Below are positions 2,878 through 19,141 of a stretch of DNA of 22,888 nt, piece after piece. Within the stretch, counting starts at the first letter, position 1. Each line of letters opens with the position of its first letter. Both the position numbers and the translations under genes were made by a program. The stretch is taken from IMG/VR virus record IMGVR_UViG_3300037587_000666, positions 1 to 22,888 of that record; one strand, 5' to 3'. The notes beneath the pieces were generated by a model. That model worked only from the letters and a program-made list of their open reading frames with translations, searched no databases and had not been told where the DNA came from. This DNA is from a virus.

Positions 2878-2902
2878 GGGTGTCCTTCGGGGCACCCACT
2901 TT
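2878..2902 (+). terminator. TTCG-tetraloop hairpin between the SSB-like gene and thyX
   Basis: Bases 2878-2885 pair with 2890-2897 in an 8-bp stem (one G-T wobble) closed by the very stable TTCG loop. A short ACTTTCT tail follows, too poor in T for a strong intrinsic terminator. It may attenuate transcription, or act as an RNA-processing or 3'-stabilising hairpin. It also makes the GTG at 2880 an unlikely start for thyX, since that codon lies inside the stem. Confidence 0.6.
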
Positions 2903-2908
2903 CTATCA

Positions 2909-2922
2909 AGAGTCGAAGAGAG
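2909..2922 (+). repeat. Early-leader box, copy 2 (AGAGTCGAAGAGAG)
   Basis: This is the same element as at 6213-6229 and 9004-9020 with a one-base insertion. It lies just after the TTCG hairpin and 23 bases before the thyX ATG. No convincing -35/-10 pair precedes it here, so it may mark a processed or attenuated leader rather than a new promoter. Confidence 0.45.
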
Positions 2923-2945
2923 CAACAACACAGAGGCTAAGCGCT

Positions 2946-3701
2946 ATGCTCGATGCAAACGGAAAAAATGTCACGCTATCAGGCGTGGTCGATAGCAAAA
3001 TTGATGTCCTTGATCACGGTCATGTACGGCTGGTGGATCACATGGGCAGCGACCTGTCAATTTCACGCAATGCGCGTGTTTCTTACAATGCGGAATGGCG
3101 AGCGGGGGAAGACAAAGGCAGTGACACGAAGCTGATCAACTATCTGTACAACAACGGTCATAACACGCCGTTTGAATCAGTGACATTCACCTTTGACGTG
3201 AAAGCGCCGATTTTCGTGTTCCGCCAGTGGCATCGGCATCGCACCCAGAGTTTCAACGAGGTCAGCGCTCGATACACCGAACTGCCTGAAGAGTTCTACG
3301 TACCGGAGCCTAACTTGATCGGCCAACAGCATTCTGATAACAAGCAGATGCGTACTACAATCACGTGGGAAGAATTTACCCAACTGAGTGATGTTGACCG
3401 GGCCATGATGGAATCAGCCTGCGTCTACATGAAAGAAGCGAATGCGGCTTCGTTCAGAAGTTACCATCAAATGATAAAAGATGGCGTTCCTCGTGAGCTG
3501 GCACGATCAGTACTGCCGGTGGGTACTTATAGCCACATGTTTGCGACAGTCAATCTCCACAACCTATTTCGGTTCTTGGCGGAGCGGATGCACCCACATG
3601 CCCAATACGAAATCCGGGTATACGCCGAAGCAATGCTGGAGCTGATCCGGCCCATCGTGCCGGTGGCAGTAGCAGCGTTCGAAGAAAAATTCGAAAAATA
3701 G
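2946..3701 (+). CDS. thyX: Flavin-dependent thymidylate synthase ThyX (251 aa)
   Basis: ThyX methylates dUMP to dTMP with methylene-tetrahydrofolate, FAD and NADPH. The diagnostic RHRxxSxNExSxRY motif is complete at residues 97-110 (R97, H98, R99, S102, N104, E105, S107, R109, Y110). It is preceded by 'NNGHNTPFES', the usual ThyX lead-in. The later 'DGVPRELARSVLPVGTYS' (about 179-196) is the conserved substrate-binding segment, and length fits the family. The ATG at 2946 has a GAGG site at 2933-2936. A longer frame from GTG 2880 starts inside the hairpin and is rejected. The gene lies next to the DNA polymerase. In a phage that rebuilds its purine pool, ThyX would supply dTMP, the pairing partner of Z. 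Identification is secure. Confidence 0.96.
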   Translation: MLDANGKNVTLSGVVDSKIDVLDHGHVRLVDHMGSDLSISRNARVSYNAEWRAGEDKGSDTKLINYLYNNGHNTPFESVTFTFDVKAPIFVFRQWHRHRTQSFNEVSARYTELPEEFYVPEPNLIGQQHSDNKQMRTTITWEEFTQLSDVDRAMMESACVYMKEANAASFRSYHQMIKDGVPRELARSVLPVGTYSHMFATVNLHNLFRFLAERMHPHAQYEIRVYAEAMLELIRPIVPVAVAAFEEKFEK

Positions 3702-3715
3702 CAACAATTAAGGGT

Positions 3716-3731
3716 GGGGCGTAATTGCCCC
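3716..3731 (+). promoter_or_regulatory. Small GC hairpin in the thyX-polymerase junction
   Basis: GGGGC (3716-3720) and GCCCC (3727-3731) can pair around a 6-base loop. The only purine-rich Shine-Dalgarno-like sequence (AAGGGTGGGG, 3710-3719) overlaps its left arm, and the ATG at 3747 follows 15 bases after it. It could tune polymerase translation. No T-run follows, so it is not an intrinsic terminator. Confidence 0.35.
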
Positions 3732-3746
3732 ATTTGGCCGATCAAA

Positions 3747-5597
3747 ATGAGTTTTCCCAACATTCTAGCATACGACGAATTAGCGTTCGACACCGAAACC
3801 ACCGGCTTAAATCCGATGGACGGTGCCCGAGTATTCGGGTTTAGTATTTCCACTGCGGATGCCGACTACTATTGGGACATCCGCCAACAGCCTAACGCGG
3901 TTCTCTGGTTCAATGACCAGATGAAGAAGTATAAAGGCACCATTATCTGCCACAACTTATCATTTGACTATCGGATGTCCCATGCGACCGGAATCTACTT
4001 CCCGTTAGAACAGGCCGTTGACACATGCATTCTGGCCTGCCTGATCAACGAACACGAGCACAGCTACGCGCTCGACAATCTGGCAAAGAAATACACCAAA
4101 TCATTTAAAAAGGGTGATGAGCTATATAAAAAGTTGGCTGAGCTATTTGGGGGGCGGGCGACTAAAAATGTGCAAGTCAAGAACTTCGCCAGAGCACCAG
4201 TAGAAGTCATGGCCCCCTATGCCAAGGCCGACACACGCGCCACATTTGATCTGTACCAATGGCAAAAACGACAGATTGTAGAGCAAGGGTTGGAAAAGAT
4301 AGTTGCTTTCGAACGCGAAGTGACACCGGCTATCATCGAAGCCGAAATGCATGGGATCAGGGTTGATATCCCAGCGGCAGAACGTGCCGTAGGCCCGATC
4401 ACAGAAGAAGTTAACCGCATGCAAAAGGAACTGGACAGCATCGCGGGCTTCCACTGCAACCCACAACCGAGCGGCGATATCAAAAAACTGTTCAAACCGG
4501 AATGGCGAGAGGAACGATGGTGGGCCAATGATGGGACGCCATTAGCAAATACAAACGCCGGGAATCCAAGCCTAGGAGCTGAGGCCCTGCGGGCAATGTC
4601 CCACCCAGCCGCGAAGTTGATACTTGATTTACGCAGTATGATCAAGACACGTGACACATTCTTAATGGGCCATGTTCTTGAGTCAGCCTGTAATGGCCGC
4701 GTCTACCCTACTATCAACCAAACGAAAGGTGACGAAGGCGGCACCGGTACAGGGCGGCTGTCATACACTACCCCCGCACTGCAGCAGATCCCGGACCGGA
4801 ATAAGAAGGTTGCCGAGATTGTAAAGCAGGTCTTCTTGCCAGACGAAGGCCACTCGTGGGTGGACGCTGATAAGGCGTCATTCGAGGTTCGGATGTTTGC
4901 TCACTTAGTGGGCACACGTGATATCTGTCAAGTGTACGAAGACAACCCGGAGACTGACTTTCATCAATATGTGGCTGATCTAACGGGCTTGGTACGAAAT
5001 GCCACATATACCGGCCAGCCGAATGCCAAGCAACTGAATTTAAGCATGATCTTCAACCAGGGCAATGGGACTACTGCTGAAAAAATGGACTTACCATGGG
5101 AGTGGGAAAGCTTCGTGCCGAGAGACAGCATCGACGGCGAAGAAGTCGTGTTCAAGAAGGCAGGGCCAGAGGCAATGGCGGTGATCAATAAGTATCACCA
5201 TGAACTGCCGGGAGTACAAAAATTAGCTGATGGCTGCAAGAAAGTAGCAATTGACAGGGGCTACATCTTCACCCGTGCCGGACGTCATTTGCGATTCCCA
5301 CGGGGATACAAGGCGTATAGTGCATCAGGGTTGCTGATCCAAGCAACATCGGCGGACGAAAACAAGCGGAGCTGGATGCGGATTCGTGAGGCACTGAGTG
5401 GCACCGACGGCAAAATGCTGATCAACACGCACGATTCCTACAGCATGTCGTTGCCGATCGGTAAAGAGCAGCAAATAGCTAAATTGGTGAAGGAAGCGGT
5501 AGAAGCGGATCGCGGGCTACGCGTTCCACTGATACTTGAAGTCAACCATCCCGGTAAAAATTGGTGGGAATCTAAAAGCGCAGGGCGGTGGATGTGA
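3747..5597 (+). CDS. dpoZ: Family A DNA polymerase with 3'-5' exonuclease, DpoZ type (616 aa)
   Basis: This is the phage replicative polymerase, and the linked purZ-mazZ-datZ genes mark it as the DpoZ type that copies with dZTP. Numbering is from ATG 3747; an in-frame GTG at 3714 would add 11 residues, and neither start has a good ribosome site. The exonuclease domain is intact: Exo I D15-T-E17, Exo II N70...F73-D74, Exo III Y158...D162. Polymerase motif A is DKASFEVR, with D375 as metal ligand and E380 as the ribose-side gate. Motif B has K428 but Gln four residues before it, Leu where Pol I has Phe762, and Phe where it has Tyr766. Motif C reads H562-D563-S564 instead of HDE. There is no 5'-3' nuclease domain. 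The gene overlaps the next by one base. The family A call is secure; Z preference is inferred from context. Confidence 0.93.
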   Translation: MSFPNILAYDELAFDTETTGLNPMDGARVFGFSISTADADYYWDIRQQPNAVLWFNDQMKKYKGTIICHNLSFDYRMSHATGIYFPLEQAVDTCILACLINEHEHSYALDNLAKKYTKSFKKGDELYKKLAELFGGRATKNVQVKNFARAPVEVMAPYAKADTRATFDLYQWQKRQIVEQGLEKIVAFEREVTPAIIEAEMHGIRVDIPAAERAVGPITEEVNRMQKELDSIAGFHCNPQPSGDIKKLFKPEWREERWWANDGTPLANTNAGNPSLGAEALRAMSHPAAKLILDLRSMIKTRDTFLMGHVLESACNGRVYPTINQTKGDEGGTGTGRLSYTTPALQQIPDRNKKVAEIVKQVFLPDEGHSWVDADKASFEVRMFAHLVGTRDICQVYEDNPETDFHQYVADLTGLVRNATYTGQPNAKQLNLSMIFNQGNGTTAEKMDLPWEWESFVPRDSIDGEEVVFKKAGPEAMAVINKYHHELPGVQKLADGCKKVAIDRGYIFTRAGRHLRFPRGYKAYSASGLLIQATSADENKRSWMRIREALSGTDGKMLINTHDSYSMSLPIGKEQQIAKLVKEAVEADRGLRVPLILEVNHPGKNWWESKSAGRWM

Positions 5598-6050: not shown

Positions 6051-6193
6051 AAATTTGTTATCAGTGTGAAAAGGACGTGAATTACTTATTTGGCGATTCC
6101 CGCTGCGGCGAATGTACTCGATTAACGCCGGAAGAAGTAAGGGGAGATATTGAGCCAGAAGAGCCAACGATCACGGTTGACGACGACGACTAG
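6047..6193 (+). CDS. Small zinc-ribbon-like protein with acidic tail (48 aa)
   Basis: This short frame starts in a four-base ATGA overlap with the preceding stop. Two CxxC knuckles, C4-Y-Q-C7 and C20-G-E-C23, lie 12 residues apart, as in a compact zinc ribbon. The second half is very acidic, ending in four Asp. The ribosome site GAAGGTGG is at 6035-6042. The last codons contain the -35 box of promoter P2. It is the second tiny two-knuckle protein in the block (compare 713-889), but the two share no other obvious sequence. Function unknown; an acidic zinc ribbon could bind a host protein, which is speculation. Confidence 0.7.
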   Translation: MKICYQCEKDVNYLFGDSRCGECTRLTPEEVRGDIEPEEPTITVDDDD

Positions 6194-6205
6194 GCGTGAT
6201 ATAAT
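6177..6205 (+). promoter_or_regulatory. Sigma-70 promoter P2 ahead of the HNH-purZ-mazZ-datZ genes
   Basis: TTGACG (6177-6182) and TATAAT (6200-6205) are spaced by 17 bases, one mismatch from full consensus. The -35 box lies inside the end of the previous gene. The spacer differs from that of P1 and P3 and lacks their CCAC...GTGG dyad, so P2 may be regulated differently. It gives the Z-biosynthesis genes their own transcription start. Confidence 0.85.
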
Positions 6206-6212
6206 GGGTTCT

Positions 6213-6229
6213 AGAGCGAAGAGAGAAAT
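6213..6229 (+). repeat. Early-leader box, copy 3 (AGAGCGAAGAGAGAAAT)
   Basis: These 17 bases are identical to 9004-9020. The GAGAG part ends 7 bases before the ATG at 6233, so it doubles as the ribosome binding site of the HNH gene. It begins 8 bases after the -10 box of P2. Confidence 0.6.
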
Positions 6230-6232
6230 CGC

Positions 6233-6550
6233 ATGTTGGCAGGCAAATACAGGCGCAAGATAAAAATTAATCTTCTCACCAGTTGCGTCGATGGCACGTC
6301 GTGCTGGATATGGCAGGGCGAGTTAAACAGAAACGGCTATGGCAGGTTATACGAACGTGGATCTAGGCCAATGGCTCACAGACATATTTATCGGCTGTTA
6401 GTGGGGAATATTGGGAAAAGGCAATTAGACCACCTCTGCTATAACCGCGCCTGCGTAAATCCACGGCATATGGAGAAGGTCACTAACAAGGTAAACAGTA
6501 GAAGAAGATCGCAACGAATTAAACAACTCAAAATCAATAAGGAATATTAA
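6233..6550 (+). CDS. HNH endonuclease, homing-type (105 aa)
   Basis: This is a small free-standing nuclease of the HNH fold. The hallmark segment is present: 'AHRHIYRLL' at 48-56 (H49/H51), then D66-H67-x-C69-x-N71-x-x-C74-x-N76-P77-x-H79, the usual DH.C.N..C.NP.H signature of phage homing HNH proteins. An upstream 'CWIWQGELNRNGYGRL' matches the N-terminal strand pair of the same family, and the C-terminus is basic. The ATG follows the leader box in P2's transcript, and the gene ends one base before purZ. Such genes move by cutting related genomes that lack them. Its site between promoter P2 and purZ suggests insertion into the Z cassette, although it may instead have a role in packaging or exclusion. 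Confidence 0.88.
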   Translation: MLAGKYRRKIKINLLTSCVDGTSCWIWQGELNRNGYGRLYERGSRPMAHRHIYRLLVGNIGKRQLDHLCYNRACVNPRHMEKVTNKVNSRRRSQRIKQLKINKEY

Positions 6551-6551
6551 A

Positions 6552-7640
6552 ATGACGACTAAGGCGTATATGATTCTCGATTTACAATTCGGCTCCACTG
6601 GCAAAGGGCTGCTGGCAGGTTATCTGGCTAAACAAATGCAGCCGGATGTAGTGGTCACTGCTTGGGGGCCGAACGCAGGGCACACCTATATTGACGAAGA
6701 AGGCCGGATTTTTATCCACCGGATGTTGGCCAATGGCATTGTTTCGCCAAAGCTCAAGGCGGTGCTTATAGGTCCCGGCTCGGTACTGGATCTGGATGTG
6801 CTAAACGCCGAAATCGAGTCGTGCAAATCTCTACTGATCGGGAAGTGTTTAGTAATTCACCCGCAGGCGGTTGTAGTGACCGACGAGCACCGGAAAACGG
6901 AAGTGCGAAACGTTAAAATCGGCTCCACGATGAAGGGCACCGGCGCAGCGGTGATCGAGCGTATTGAGCGGGATCCGGACAACAACCCAACGGCCATTTC
7001 AGCCATTCCGCGTAGCTGGCTGGACAACATCGCCCAAATGGGCATTGGCATTGAAGTATCGTCCCGCACATATGACTACTTCATGTCGAGCGCCGAAAAA
7101 ATTCAAATCGAAGGCGCTCAAGGGTACAGCCTGTCGATTTATCACGGCTTTTACCCGTACGTCACCTCCCGTGATGTAACTCCTGCACAAGTCATGGCCG
7201 ACTGCGCCATTCCATTTAGCATCATTCCCGAAGTGTACGGCACCCTTCGAACGTTCCCCATTCGAGTGGCGAATCGTTATGATGAAGATGGCAGAATGAT
7301 CGGCACCAGTGGTCCCAGCTACCACGATCAACAAGAACTGGATTGGGGAGATATTGGGTTAGAGCCTGAATTGACTACGGTCACTCAGTTGCCGCGCCGA
7401 ATCTTTGATTTCAGCTTTGACCAGTTGAAAGAAGCGGTCTACCGTTGTGGCCCAACAAAGCTGTTTTTGAACTTCGTTAACTATCTGGATCACGAAGACG
7501 CCTTGCAACTCATCGGCAGAATCAATGCCGAAATCGATGGTCGCCATTGCCGGATAGAATGGGTCGGTGTCGGGCCTGCACACCAGGACGTGCTAAGCAC
7601 TGTTCATTGGGCCGACACGAATAGCAAGAGGGGGTCGTAA
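6552..7640 (+). CDS. purZ: PurZ, 2-aminoadenylosuccinate synthetase (362 aa)
   Basis: PurZ is the adenylosuccinate-synthetase paralogue that joins dGMP to aspartate, giving the precursor that host PurB splits to dZMP. The fold is clear from the P-loop-like Q12-F-G-S-T-G-K-G19, 'GPNAGHT' at 39-45 (H44), 'EGAQGYSLSIYHGFYPYVTS' from 188, 'TLRTFPIRVAN' from 231 and the C-terminal 'VGVGP'. In PurA the glycine loop is GDEGKGK and its Asp is the catalytic base; here Ser15 takes that place, the hallmark of PurZ over PurA. At 362 residues it is shorter than bacterial PurA (about 430). The start ATG has an AAGGAA site (6539-6544). It is two bases from the kinase-mazZ fusion. Identification is strong; substrate use is inferred from the family. 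Confidence 0.95.
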   Translation: MTTKAYMILDLQFGSTGKGLLAGYLAKQMQPDVVVTAWGPNAGHTYIDEEGRIFIHRMLANGIVSPKLKAVLIGPGSVLDLDVLNAEIESCKSLLIGKCLVIHPQAVVVTDEHRKTEVRNVKIGSTMKGTGAAVIERIERDPDNNPTAISAIPRSWLDNIAQMGIGIEVSSRTYDYFMSSAEKIQIEGAQGYSLSIYHGFYPYVTSRDVTPAQVMADCAIPFSIIPEVYGTLRTFPIRVANRYDEDGRMIGTSGPSYHDQQELDWGDIGLEPELTTVTQLPRRIFDFSFDQLKEAVYRCGPTKLFLNFVNYLDHEDALQLIGRINAEIDGRHCRIEWVGVGPAHQDVLSTVHWADTNSKRGS

Positions 7641-7642
7641 TC

Positions 7643-8401
7643 ATGAAATTGATGGTATGTGGACATGGTCGCCACGGAAAAGATCAGTTTTGTGAATTCA
7701 TGGGCCTAAAATACGTCAGCTCGTCAATGGTGGCGCTGGATAAGATAATCTGGCCTGAATTCAGCAATGCGTACGGCTCAAAGCAAGAGTGTTTCGATGA
7801 CCGAGTAAATCATCGGGCTGGCTGGCACCGCCTGATCACCGAGTATAACACGCCTGATAAAACGAAATTGGCCCGCGATATTTTCGCGGAGAACACCGTT
7901 TATTGCGGCATTCGCAACCGGGAGGAATTCTACAAGGCCAAAGAAGAAGGGTTGTTTGATCTGTCAATCTGGGTGGATGCCAGTAGCCGCCAACCACCTG
8001 AGAGCGATGCCAGTTGCAAACTGCTGATATCTGATTGCGACATCATCGTGACTAACAACGGGTCGTTGGAGGAACTCGAAGAAAAGGCGTTGCGCCTTAA
8101 GGCTGCGTTGGGACTGGGTGAAATCTCGGTAAAAGATCTGATCGTTGATTGGGCCGATGAAGCATTCCCGGATCGCACAATCACCAACGCGATCCAGAAA
8201 CTCGTGCTGGAAGAAATCCCGGAGTATCTTACCTCCCAGCAAGATCCGATGGAGTTGGCCGATTTGGGCATTTTGCTCTATGACATTGCCCATTTAGCCG
8301 GTGTCGATTTGGAAAGTGCCATTCGCAAGAAAATGGAAATCAATAAGGGCCGAACTTGGGCCATTGATAAAGTAACCGGCCTAATGCGCCACGTGGAGTA
8401 A
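7643..8401 (+). CDS. mazZ: Fusion of a P-loop dNMP kinase-like domain and MazZ (MazG-type dGTP pyrophosphohydrolase), 252 aa
   Basis: Residues 1-155 look like a phage deoxynucleoside monophosphate kinase: a Walker A loop G7-H-G-R-H-G-K-D14 with the GKD ending of that family, 'YCGIRNREEF' at 87-96 with R91, 'LSIWVDASSR' at 107-116, and 'IIVTNNGSLEEL' at 134-145. Residues 165-240 form an all-helical MazG domain with metal ligands in E190-E-x-x-E194 and E204-L-A-D207, then 'KKMEINKGRTW' at 229-239. In Z phages the MazG-type MazZ makes dGMP from dGTP for PurZ. The ribosome site GAGGGGG is at 7630-7636. The gene lies between purZ and datZ. The kinase part might raise dZMP or dTMP to the diphosphate; that substrate is inference. 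The whole frame is uninterrupted, so the fusion is real in this sequence. Confidence 0.88.
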   Translation: MKLMVCGHGRHGKDQFCEFMGLKYVSSSMVALDKIIWPEFSNAYGSKQECFDDRVNHRAGWHRLITEYNTPDKTKLARDIFAENTVYCGIRNREEFYKAKEEGLFDLSIWVDASSRQPPESDASCKLLISDCDIIVTNNGSLEELEEKALRLKAALGLGEISVKDLIVDWADEAFPDRTITNAIQKLVLEEIPEYLTSQQDPMELADLGILLYDIAHLAGVDLESAIRKKMEINKGRTWAIDKVTGLMRHVE

Positions 8402-8406
8402 CCTAT

Positions 8407-8913
8407 ATGATCCTCGATTTCAGTGTACGGGAAATTATGCGACTGTCTAACATCAAACGATGGGGGATAGTTGAAATGGCTCGCAGCCAGTCGGTCGCGG
8501 AGCATTCATACAACGTGGCGATGATATCGTTGGCCATAGCATCTGAAATCGAGGTTCCGTGGGCAGAAGTGTCACGCAGTGAAATCCTTTATTGGGCTTT
8601 GCTACACGATGTACCAGAGGTGGTGACGGGCGATATCCCAACCTCCCTAAAAGGATATCTGGACGTAGAGAGTATGGAAAGGGAGTTATGTCCGAAGTAT
8701 AAAAGCTTCGAGGACTCGATAAAAGGGACGTTAGCAAAAACCGTGGTCAAGGCCGCTGATTACATCGAGGCATTACAGTTCGCTGAAAAATTCTGTGTGG
8801 ATAGCAGAAAGAACGAGATCATATACGACATCCAAAGTAACATGGTGTCGTTCTTAGATAAAAAAGAGAACATCCGTGTTGCTCTTGCCGTGGAGAAGTT
8901 AGATTTTGAGTAG
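8407..8913 (+). CDS. datZ: DatZ, HD-domain dATP triphosphohydrolase (168 aa)
   Basis: DatZ removes dATP, leaving deoxyadenosine and triphosphate, so that A is not incorporated. The HD-fold ligands are visible: H33 in 'VAEHS', H67-D68 in 'LLHDVPEVVTGD', and D118 in 'KAADY'; E71 and D76 lie where YfbR-type phosphohydrolases have theirs. R18-W19 at the end of helix 1 is the conserved base-binding pair. I21 and P78 sit at the spacing I recall for the S-2L enzyme residues that block the 2-amino group of dZTP (I22, P79). Length (168) is close to known DatZ (about 175). The gene follows mazZ by five bases. A generic 5'-nucleotidase of the YfbR family is the alternative, made unlikely by the purZ-mazZ linkage. 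Confidence 0.92.
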   Translation: MILDFSVREIMRLSNIKRWGIVEMARSQSVAEHSYNVAMISLAIASEIEVPWAEVSRSEILYWALLHDVPEVVTGDIPTSLKGYLDVESMERELCPKYKSFEDSIKGTLAKTVVKAADYIEALQFAEKFCVDSRKNEIIYDIQSNMVSFLDKKENIRVALAVEKLDFE

Positions 8914-8947: not shown

Positions 8948-8976
8948 TTGACACCGCCACAGGGACGTGGTATAAT
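8948..8976 (+). promoter_or_regulatory. Perfect-consensus sigma-70 promoter P3, duplicate of P1
   Basis: TTGACA at 8948-8953 and TATAAT at 8971-8976 have a 17-base spacer. Bases 8947-8978 are identical to 656-687, spacer included, while the flanks differ. The shared CCAC...GTGG dyad within the spacer (8957-8960 and 8967-8970) suggests that the conserved block also binds a regulator. The rest of the 8914-9023 gap holds only the leader. Confidence 0.93.
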
Positions 8977-9003: not shown

Positions 9004-9020
9004 AGAGCGAAGAGAGAAAT
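9004..9020 (+). repeat. Early-leader box, copy 4 (AGAGCGAAGAGAGAAAT)
   Basis: This copy is identical to 6213-6229. Its GAGAG ends 7 bases before the ATG at 9024, the same spacing as in copy 3, so it acts as the ribosome binding site and is conserved beyond what a Shine-Dalgarno match needs. It starts 28 bases after the P3 -10 box. Confidence 0.6.
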
Positions 9021-18542: not shown

Positions 18543-19141
18543 TGGAATGCCTCGACAGCGGAAACACTAAAGCTTGAAAATGTGCCGGGGCGGTTAACCC
18601 ATCTGGCTTGAGCATCGTCTTGCAACATCATCGTTGCTGTGGCTTGAGTAACAGTTATCACTGCATTATTAGCAGGGCTTGATCGCATAGGAGGCTCAAC
18701 CGTCAGTGTTGCATTACCACCGCCATCGCTATTCACATCGGCAACAACCATCTTCAACTCATTGTTGAATTCAACATAGTCACCGGCCCGCATGATGTTA
18801 GTTTGGCTTGGTGTCCACCCGTCAGTAATCAGCGAGGTCCCTGTTTGACTTGCCCCATTTACCAGCGGTGAACCGGTGCCAACTCCGCGAGGGCTCGAAT
18901 GAGAATGGTCAAACAAAAAGAACCGACCGGACTGCCCGCGCAATTGGGCTAGAAACGCGGCCAAAACCCTAGCTTCTGTGTTGGACAGATCAGTGAAGAT
19001 CATGTTCGCCAGCCAACGTGAGCCGGTTAATTCACGGGTTTGGATGGACCGGCTCAAAGGTGAATTGAACGACTGGGTATTGCTTTCCAGCGCCCACTCA
19101 GTTCTCATCGGCACGATACTTGGGAATGTTAGTGTGGCCAT
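18539..19141 (-). CDS. Distal tail-like minor tail protein (200 aa)
   Basis: The N-terminal 'FPSIVPMRTEWALESNTQSFNSPLSRSIQTRELTGSRW' and 'FTDLSNTEARVLAAFLAQLRGQSGRFFLFDHSH' (about 49-82) recall the tail proteins that follow the tape measure in many siphoviruses (DUF2460/distal-tail-like), with the aromatic 'GRFFLFD' strand typical of them. The rest is a Gly/Thr-rich beta domain ending in an amphipathic strand. It begins at the tape measure's stop (one-base overlap) and ends in a four-base overlap with the next gene. A role at the tube-tip junction is inferred from gene order. Confidence 0.75.
   Translation of the reverse strand: MATLTFPSIVPMRTEWALESNTQSFNSPLSRSIQTRELTGSRWLANMIFTDLSNTEARVLAAFLAQLRGQSGRFFLFDHSHSSPRGVGTGSPLVNGASQTGTSLITDGWTPSQTNIMRAGDYVEFNNELKMVVADVNSDGGGNATLTVEPPMRSSPANNAVITVTQATATMMLQDDAQARWVNRPGTFSSFSVSAVEAFQ

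Follow-up and report, generated by a model that had tools for sequence, protein, structure and literature searches.

MazZ-1 of cyanophage S-2L (structure 7ody; PMC8342488) is a stand-alone protein of about 105 amino acids encoded between purZ and datZ. Fusions at the N terminus of MazZ-1 were known in general from earlier work (PMC8342488), and in Acinetobacter phage SH-Ab 15497 the N-terminal partner is DUF5664, a dNTP hydrolase family, within a DUF5664-DUF550 (MazZ) protein (PMC12884076). The steps from dSMP to dZTP have been assigned to host enzymes (PMC12884076, PMC8342488). Among phage kinases, T4 gp1 (1dek) is a free-standing P-loop enzyme of 241 amino acids, and its database record notes dTMP, dGMP and HMdCMP as substrates. 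In the PRA-PH-kinase proteins of the Rhodobacter phages RcRudolph and RcSimone-Hastad and of Roseobacter phage RDJL Phi 1, an all-alpha NTP pyrophosphohydrolase is joined to a kinase of the family described here (40-48% identity), and in the N4-like roseophages (for example RD-1410W1-01) an N-terminal kinase of the same family (41% identity) is joined to the thymidylate synthase ThyX.

We analysed a 22,888-nucleotide stretch of viral DNA (the window; positions 1 to 22,888 of IMG/VR record IMGVR_UViG_3300037587_000666) in which a 156-residue kinase stands in front of a MazZ-1 domain. The equivalents of the S-2L metal ligands, guanine contacts I56 and D60, and R83 are kept; as in SH-Ab 15497, MazZ-1 is N-terminally fused at the same operon position, but the partner is a kinase instead of a dNTP hydrolase. 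With T4 gp1 the protein shares the P-loop kinase fold, the GKD P-loop, R-x3-E and N-(D/N)-G-S-L-E-E-L, although identity is ~21%, GKDQ replaces GKDT and the PF21448 score lies below the cut-off. The PRA-PH-kinase proteins differ in their reverse domain order, their PF01503 hydrolase and their ThyX-dCMP deaminase-DHFR operons, and neither they nor the kinase-ThyX proteins occur with PurZ. Among the main texts of the openly accessible papers searched, none joins the Z pathway to a dNMP kinase, and the word 'kinase' does not occur in the two main papers on Z gene clusters. The initial annotation had considered the arrangement undescribed; this holds for the kinase partner, which is not named in PMC12884076 or PMC8342488, but not for N-terminal fusion of MazZ-1 as such, already reported in PMC8342488. 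We propose a two-domain nucleotide-pool enzyme in which MazZ would start Z synthesis and the kinase would most likely act on dZMP, a reading to which we assign a probability of about 0.45. The analysis establishes the identity of the domains, the predicted fold, the operon, the recurrence of the fusion and its repeated joining. We infer the catalytic activity, the substrate and the benefit of the protein from its sequence and predicted structure, by which the kinase could act on a later step of the Z pathway.

The kinase-MazZ gene and its operon

The kinase-MazZ gene is one ATG frame encoding 252 amino acids in two domains, neither of them identified by a chance match. The features of the locus are as follows.

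2880-3701 (+): ThyX, apart from the fusion (TIGR02170, 187 bits, cut-off 88)
3714-5597 (+): family A DNA polymerase, candidate DpoZ (PF00476, E 2e-38)
6177-6205 (+): sigma-70-like promoter TTGACG-17-TATAAT (11/12 match), upstream of the HNH-PurZ-kinase/MazZ-DatZ run
6552-7640 (+): PurZ, succino-amino-deoxyadenylate synthase (NF038379, 359 bits, cut-off 300; phrog_1211, E 2e-85)
7627-7634 (+): ribosome-binding-like GA-rich stretch AGAGGGGG, read from the sequence
7643-8401 (+): kinase-MazZ fusion gene, a single ATG frame; same fusion in L018/L137 and L138
7643-8110 (+): N-terminal compact dNMP-kinase-like domain, residues 1-156 (phrog_38514; AF2 model; T4 gp1 1dek_A)
7661-7684 (+): Walker A GHGRHGKD, residues 7-14; the next residue, Q15, takes the place of the T of relatives
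7904-7930 (+): CGIRNREEF, residues 88-96; G89, R91 and E95 are invariant in the kinase family
8054-8077 (+): NNGSLEEL, residues 138-145, a C-terminal motif common to T4 gp1
8126-8398 (+): C-terminal MazZ-1 domain, residues 162-252, predicted dGTP pyrophosphohydrolase (7ody; PF04447; invariant catalytic and guanine residues)
8210-8224 (+): MazG metal motif EExxE, residues 190-194
8252-8263 (+): MazG metal motif ExxD, residues 204-207
8407-8913 (+): DatZ-like HD dATP triphosphohydrolase (phrog_7076, E 3e-29; PF12917, E 2e-19)

The initial annotation had described one frame with a kinase-like half and a MazG half, and the five motifs that it named (Walker A at G7-D14, CGIRNREEF, NNGSLEEL, EExxE and ExxD) are all where it had placed them. 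The gene order is PurZ, kinase-MazZ, DatZ with gaps of 2 and 5 bases, so that the MazZ half sits between purZ and datZ (6552-7640, 7643-8401 and 8407-8913). ThyX lies 3.9 kb upstream of the fusion, and a siphophage block of tail and lysis genes fills the rest of the window. The family A polymerase shares 75% identity with the one that lies upstream of PurZ in a complete relative (contig L137, genome G001), in which a similar sigma-70-like site is found at 18718, just upstream of PurZ. The window phage is predicted to carry Z-DNA (2-aminoadenine for A). An HNH endonuclease gene (6233-6550), with no match in G001 or G002, lies between the polymerase and PurZ. Two perfect TTGACA-17-TATAAT promoters (657-685 and 8948-8976) have identical 17-base spacers, and the 17-base sequence AGAGCGAAGAGAGAAAT occurs exactly twice in the window (6213-6229 and 9004-9020; 0.01 expected), each copy lying between a near-perfect sigma-70-like promoter and a start codon, as a shared leader.

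The C-terminal half matches the S-2L MazZ crystal structure 7ody (E 1e-12) and, above its cut-off, PF04447 (E 6e-8), and is 52% identical to the MazZ domain of SH-Ab 15497, its nearest characterised MazZ relative. In S-2L MazZ, E35, E38, E50 and D53 are metal ligands, R83 acts on the transition state, and I56 and D60 contact guanine (PMC8342488). The window counterparts of the first five, E191, E194, E204, D207 and R237, and of the guanine-reading pair, I210 and D214, are all invariant in the MazZ alignment. Because the metal, transition-state and guanine residues of S-2L all have identical counterparts, the domain can safely be predicted to have dGTP pyrophosphohydrolase activity. As modelled in the full-length protein, the MazZ half consists of helices and a pair of strands at its C terminus, at a lower confidence (60-79) since just three alignment rows cover it. 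By eye, the extensions before MazZ-1 in five other loci (L105, L106, L107, L196 and L199) resemble DUF5664; the MazZ-1 N terminus seems to be a repeated joining site.

Occurrence of the fusion among Z phages

Among 47 Z-phage records (the window, 42 from IMG/VR and 4 from INPHARED), the kinase profile was found in three (the window and two others), in each case as the fusion, and most Z phages therefore do without it. The PurZ/MazZ loci that carry the fusion are the window, L018 and L098/L137 (one phage species), and L138, and the order PurZ, fusion, DatZ is the same at every one of them. The L137 and L018 fusion proteins are identical at 271 of 272 residues. An assembly or frameshift artefact was ruled out, as independent contigs (L137 and L018; L138) carry the fusion uninterrupted and agree in gene order. 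Neither guanylate kinase (PF00625, E 0.01; the control matched 11/14 genomes) nor thymidylate kinase (profile search; the control matched 13/14) was detected in any of the 47 records. Searches with PF00625, PF02223 and PF21448 found no other nucleotide-monophosphate kinase in the Z phages, PF21448 being a weak probe that at E 0.01 misses even the fused kinase of G001.

From an exact direct terminal repeat of 127 bp, the L137 contig is read as a complete 39.7-kb genome. It contains the fusion, and searches of it detected neither a thymidylate synthase (ThyX or ThyA) nor a guanylate or thymidylate kinase. ThyX was detected in three of the 47 records, including the window and L138; these two ThyX proteins are 30% identical and differently placed, and ThyX was therefore not inherited with the fusion. 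No class I RNR small subunit was found in the window, L137 or L138. The suggestion in the initial annotation that the kinase might use dTMP from the linked ThyX is weakened by this complete genome, which carries the fusion without ThyX or ThyA; the same genome rules out a partnership with ThyX as the sole reason for the fusion.

Fold and family of the kinase half

The N-terminal half matches phrog_38514 (E 3e-34), phrog_139 'deoxynucleoside monophosphate kinase' (E 4e-8) and the kinase region of the thymidylate synthase profile phrog_85 (E 3e-8), and its best relatives are 48% identical (E 8e-37). The AlphaFold (AF2) model of residues 1-156, built from a 34-sequence alignment, is a compact P-loop nucleotide kinase (mean pLDDT 94.7, pTM 0.87). 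T4 gp1 with dGMP (1dek_A) is found by Foldseek at E 2e-4 and by VIA-align with Z 11.7 (152 of 156 residues aligned, rmsd 2.9), and the kinase fold on which the initial annotation had staked its proposal is thus present in the predicted structure. Adenylate kinase-like 3lw7 (13.8), phosphomevalonate kinase 3ch4 (13.3) and dephospho-CoA kinase 2grj (11.8) score as high as T4 gp1 or higher in VIA-align; the substrate therefore cannot be read from the fold by itself. Among the nearest viral structures is the kinase that an N4-like roseophage carries fused to ThyX. The T4 gp1 profile match spans the R-x3-E helix and the N-N-G-S-L-E-E-L end, and R91 and E95 align with R177 and E181 of T4 gp1. PF21448, the T4 gp1-type dNMP kinase family, gives 14.9 bits (E 0.02) for the window protein, below the Pfam cut-off of 27.1 bits, and matches 20/34 members of the kinase family at E <=0.01 (best 4e-6). 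The guanylate kinase family PF00625 does not match the window protein at E 1.

Outside the Z phages, too, the kinase family is widespread: many phages that lack PurZ encode a member, mostly close to thymidylate synthase. The family is carried by 35 phage records in INPHARED, and at least 577 stretches in IMG/VR encode relatives. Free-standing members occur in Ssp-JY40, PS6, KASIA, MA9V-1, phi13:2, MedPE-SWcel-C56 and ParMal1; in the N4-like roseophages the kinase is N-terminal to ThyX, and in RcRudolph, RcSimone-Hastad and RDJL Phi 1 it is C-terminal to a PF01503-type NTP pyrophosphohydrolase, in genes directly upstream of ThyX, dCMP deaminase and DHFR. PurZ was detected in 0/40 kinase records searched, a search that had no internal positive control; a related search with NF038379 was above cut-off in G001 and only below cut-off in bacterial genomes, consistent with host PurA. 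The initial annotation had asked whether the domain pairing occurs only with purZ. The wider pairing does not: Rhodobacter and Roseobacter phages have fusions of the kinase with another NTP pyrophosphohydrolase in their ThyX operons, and the idea that the pairing belongs to the Z pathway as such is not supported. Its view of the fusion as a piece of the Z pathway stands in part, in that the fusion is real, lies in a PurZ-MazZ-DatZ operon and recurs in other Z phages, whereas the kinase family is also found without PurZ.

Two further layouts are of note. Genes annotated in GenBank as 'MazG-like' or 'Cof hydrolase' (L002:11392-12516, L003:11365-12567 and L008:4512-5558) are pyrophosphohydrolase-kinase fusions adjoining ThyX, with PF01503 present in those of L002 and L008. 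In a large group of myovirus-like contigs (L043:5980-6486 and L068:5995-6504), a free kinase lies directly upstream of an apparent tail sheath gene, identified by eye, an arrangement reminiscent of T4, in which gene 1 adjoins tail gene 3.

The two halves of the fusion have different histories. Between the window and L137, identity is 64% for MazZ and 66% for the kinase; the two halves are about equally conserved, and the kinase half is therefore not decaying there. Between the window and L138, it is 66% for MazZ and 39% for the kinase. The three MazZ halves form one clade (support 100/99), and the kinase halves do not: a tree that forces them together is worse by 34 log-likelihood units (AU p 0.0028; p 0.01 with nine more rows). 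The window and L137 kinases group near a free-standing kinase (L220; 55% identity, GKDT) on a Microbulbifer contig that also holds phage genes, and that of L138 groups with a free viral kinase (98/92); used as a scan query, the L138 kinase returned itself as the sole match. A kinase was therefore joined or swapped onto one MazZ lineage at least twice, in a test that draws on three fusions, one of which (L138) forms a long branch. This recurrence suggests selection for the kinase-MazZ pairing. Between most fusion pairs dS is saturated, giving no reliable dN/dS.

Candidate substrates and the active site

By homology to the assayed S-2L enzyme, the C-terminal MazZ would cut dGTP to dGMP, the substrate of PurZ; PurZ would make dSMP and host PurB would convert it to dZMP. 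The N-terminal T4 gp1-type dNMP kinase would then most likely phosphorylate dZMP to dZDP, with dTMP perhaps as a side substrate, and a phage-encoded kinase would take over a step at present attributed to the kinases of the host. The layout would mirror that of the PRA-PH-kinase proteins, in which the hydrolase would feed the neighbouring ThyX and the kinase would take the ThyX product. By this analogy a kinase on the same polypeptide would best fit the pathway output dZMP, as the PF01503-kinase fusions may flank ThyX. We tentatively favour dZMP as the main substrate over a general dNMP or dTMP kinase, given that the fusion sits in the PurZ-DatZ operon and not beside ThyX, and that the complete L137 genome has it without a thymidylate synthase. 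The predicted kinase fold, the retained invariant residues, the sustained conservation of the kinase half and the repeated joining also speak for this reading. Phages with unusual nucleotides do bring kinases, since T4 gp1 acts on HMdCMP and PBS1/2 infection induces a dUMP kinase (PMC12697855). Against dZMP count the residues at position 15 (Q, Q and E in the three fusions), the R58 that L138 has lost, how rarely the fusion occurs, the presence of the family in phages without PurZ, the use of dGMP by T4 gp1, which here would undo the work of MazZ, and the ThyX of the window. If true, phosphorylation of dZMP by a phage enzyme would lessen the reliance of the Z pathway on the host, help to explain host range and provide a ready part for Z-DNA production in laboratory strains. 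Because kinases have repeatedly been joined to a single MazZ lineage, a single purified protein and a few nucleotides would be enough to address the question.

A general phage dNMP kinase, acting on dTMP and perhaps dUMP or dCMP, might instead have been joined to MazZ for co-expression and raise dNTP supply with nothing specific to Z. We regard this as quite possible, though on balance somewhat improbable. Relatives are found beside or fused to ThyX, ThyA, DHFR and dCMP deaminase, the family is common without PurZ, and the window and L138 carry ThyX; since the family occurs without PurZ (0/40) and often beside thymidylate synthase, dTMP may be its ancestral substrate. However, L137 keeps the fusion in a complete genome with no thymidylate synthase, the ThyX proteins of the window and L138 were not inherited with it, the sole kinase copy lies inside the Z operon, and activity on dGMP would work against MazZ. 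Phosphorylation of the MazZ product itself, dGMP alone or in a mix, would set a dGTP-dGMP balance in place of one-way flux. T4 gp1 uses dGMP and structure 1dek was solved with it, but such a kinase would waste ATP and compete with PurZ for dGMP, and no sequence feature indicates dGMP; we consider it very improbable. A kinase for DNA bases (hypermodification) was dropped as a candidate, as no modification genes were recognised nearby.

Across 43 relatives, or in the first alignment of the family, ten kinase residues do not vary, and the window keeps them all (G7, G12, K13, D14, S28, R54, R58, G89, R91 and E95). Residue 15 of the P-loop is Thr (GKDT) in 39/43 relatives; the window and L137 have GKDQ and L138 has GKDE. 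The L138 kinase half (L138:7044-7600) has also lost R58, invariant in 43/43 non-Z relatives, with the other active-site residues kept. Judged from these sequences, altered or lost kinase activity is possible in all three fusions. The N-terminal domain might then no longer be a kinase but bind nucleotides and regulate or scaffold the MazZ tetramer, as other MazZ-1 extensions such as DUF5664 might. The P-loop Thr was lost in parallel in both kinase origins (to Q and to E), while the nearest free relatives, L220 and L019 (49%), retain it; L138 has no R58; and unrelated N-terminal domains are found on MazZ-1 elsewhere, namely DUF5664 in SH-Ab 15497 (PMC12884076) and the similar-looking extensions of L105-L107, L196 and L199. 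We nevertheless think the loss of kinase function unlikely, as the window and L137 keep all ten invariant residues, including K13, D14, R54, R58, R91 and E95, 66% identity has been maintained between them, and free-standing relatives that lack the Thr have K, E or F in its place. For the favoured dZMP reading, a stricter form, in which a dedicated dZMP kinase was gained at least twice by one MazZ lineage and retuned for dZMP, with dGMP left to PurZ, is rather doubtful; such retuning would possibly have involved the P-loop (T15) and residue 98. The free kinase of L220, a Microbulbifer okhotskensis contig, has the same shortened first helix as that of the window and adjoins lysis and terminase-like genes.
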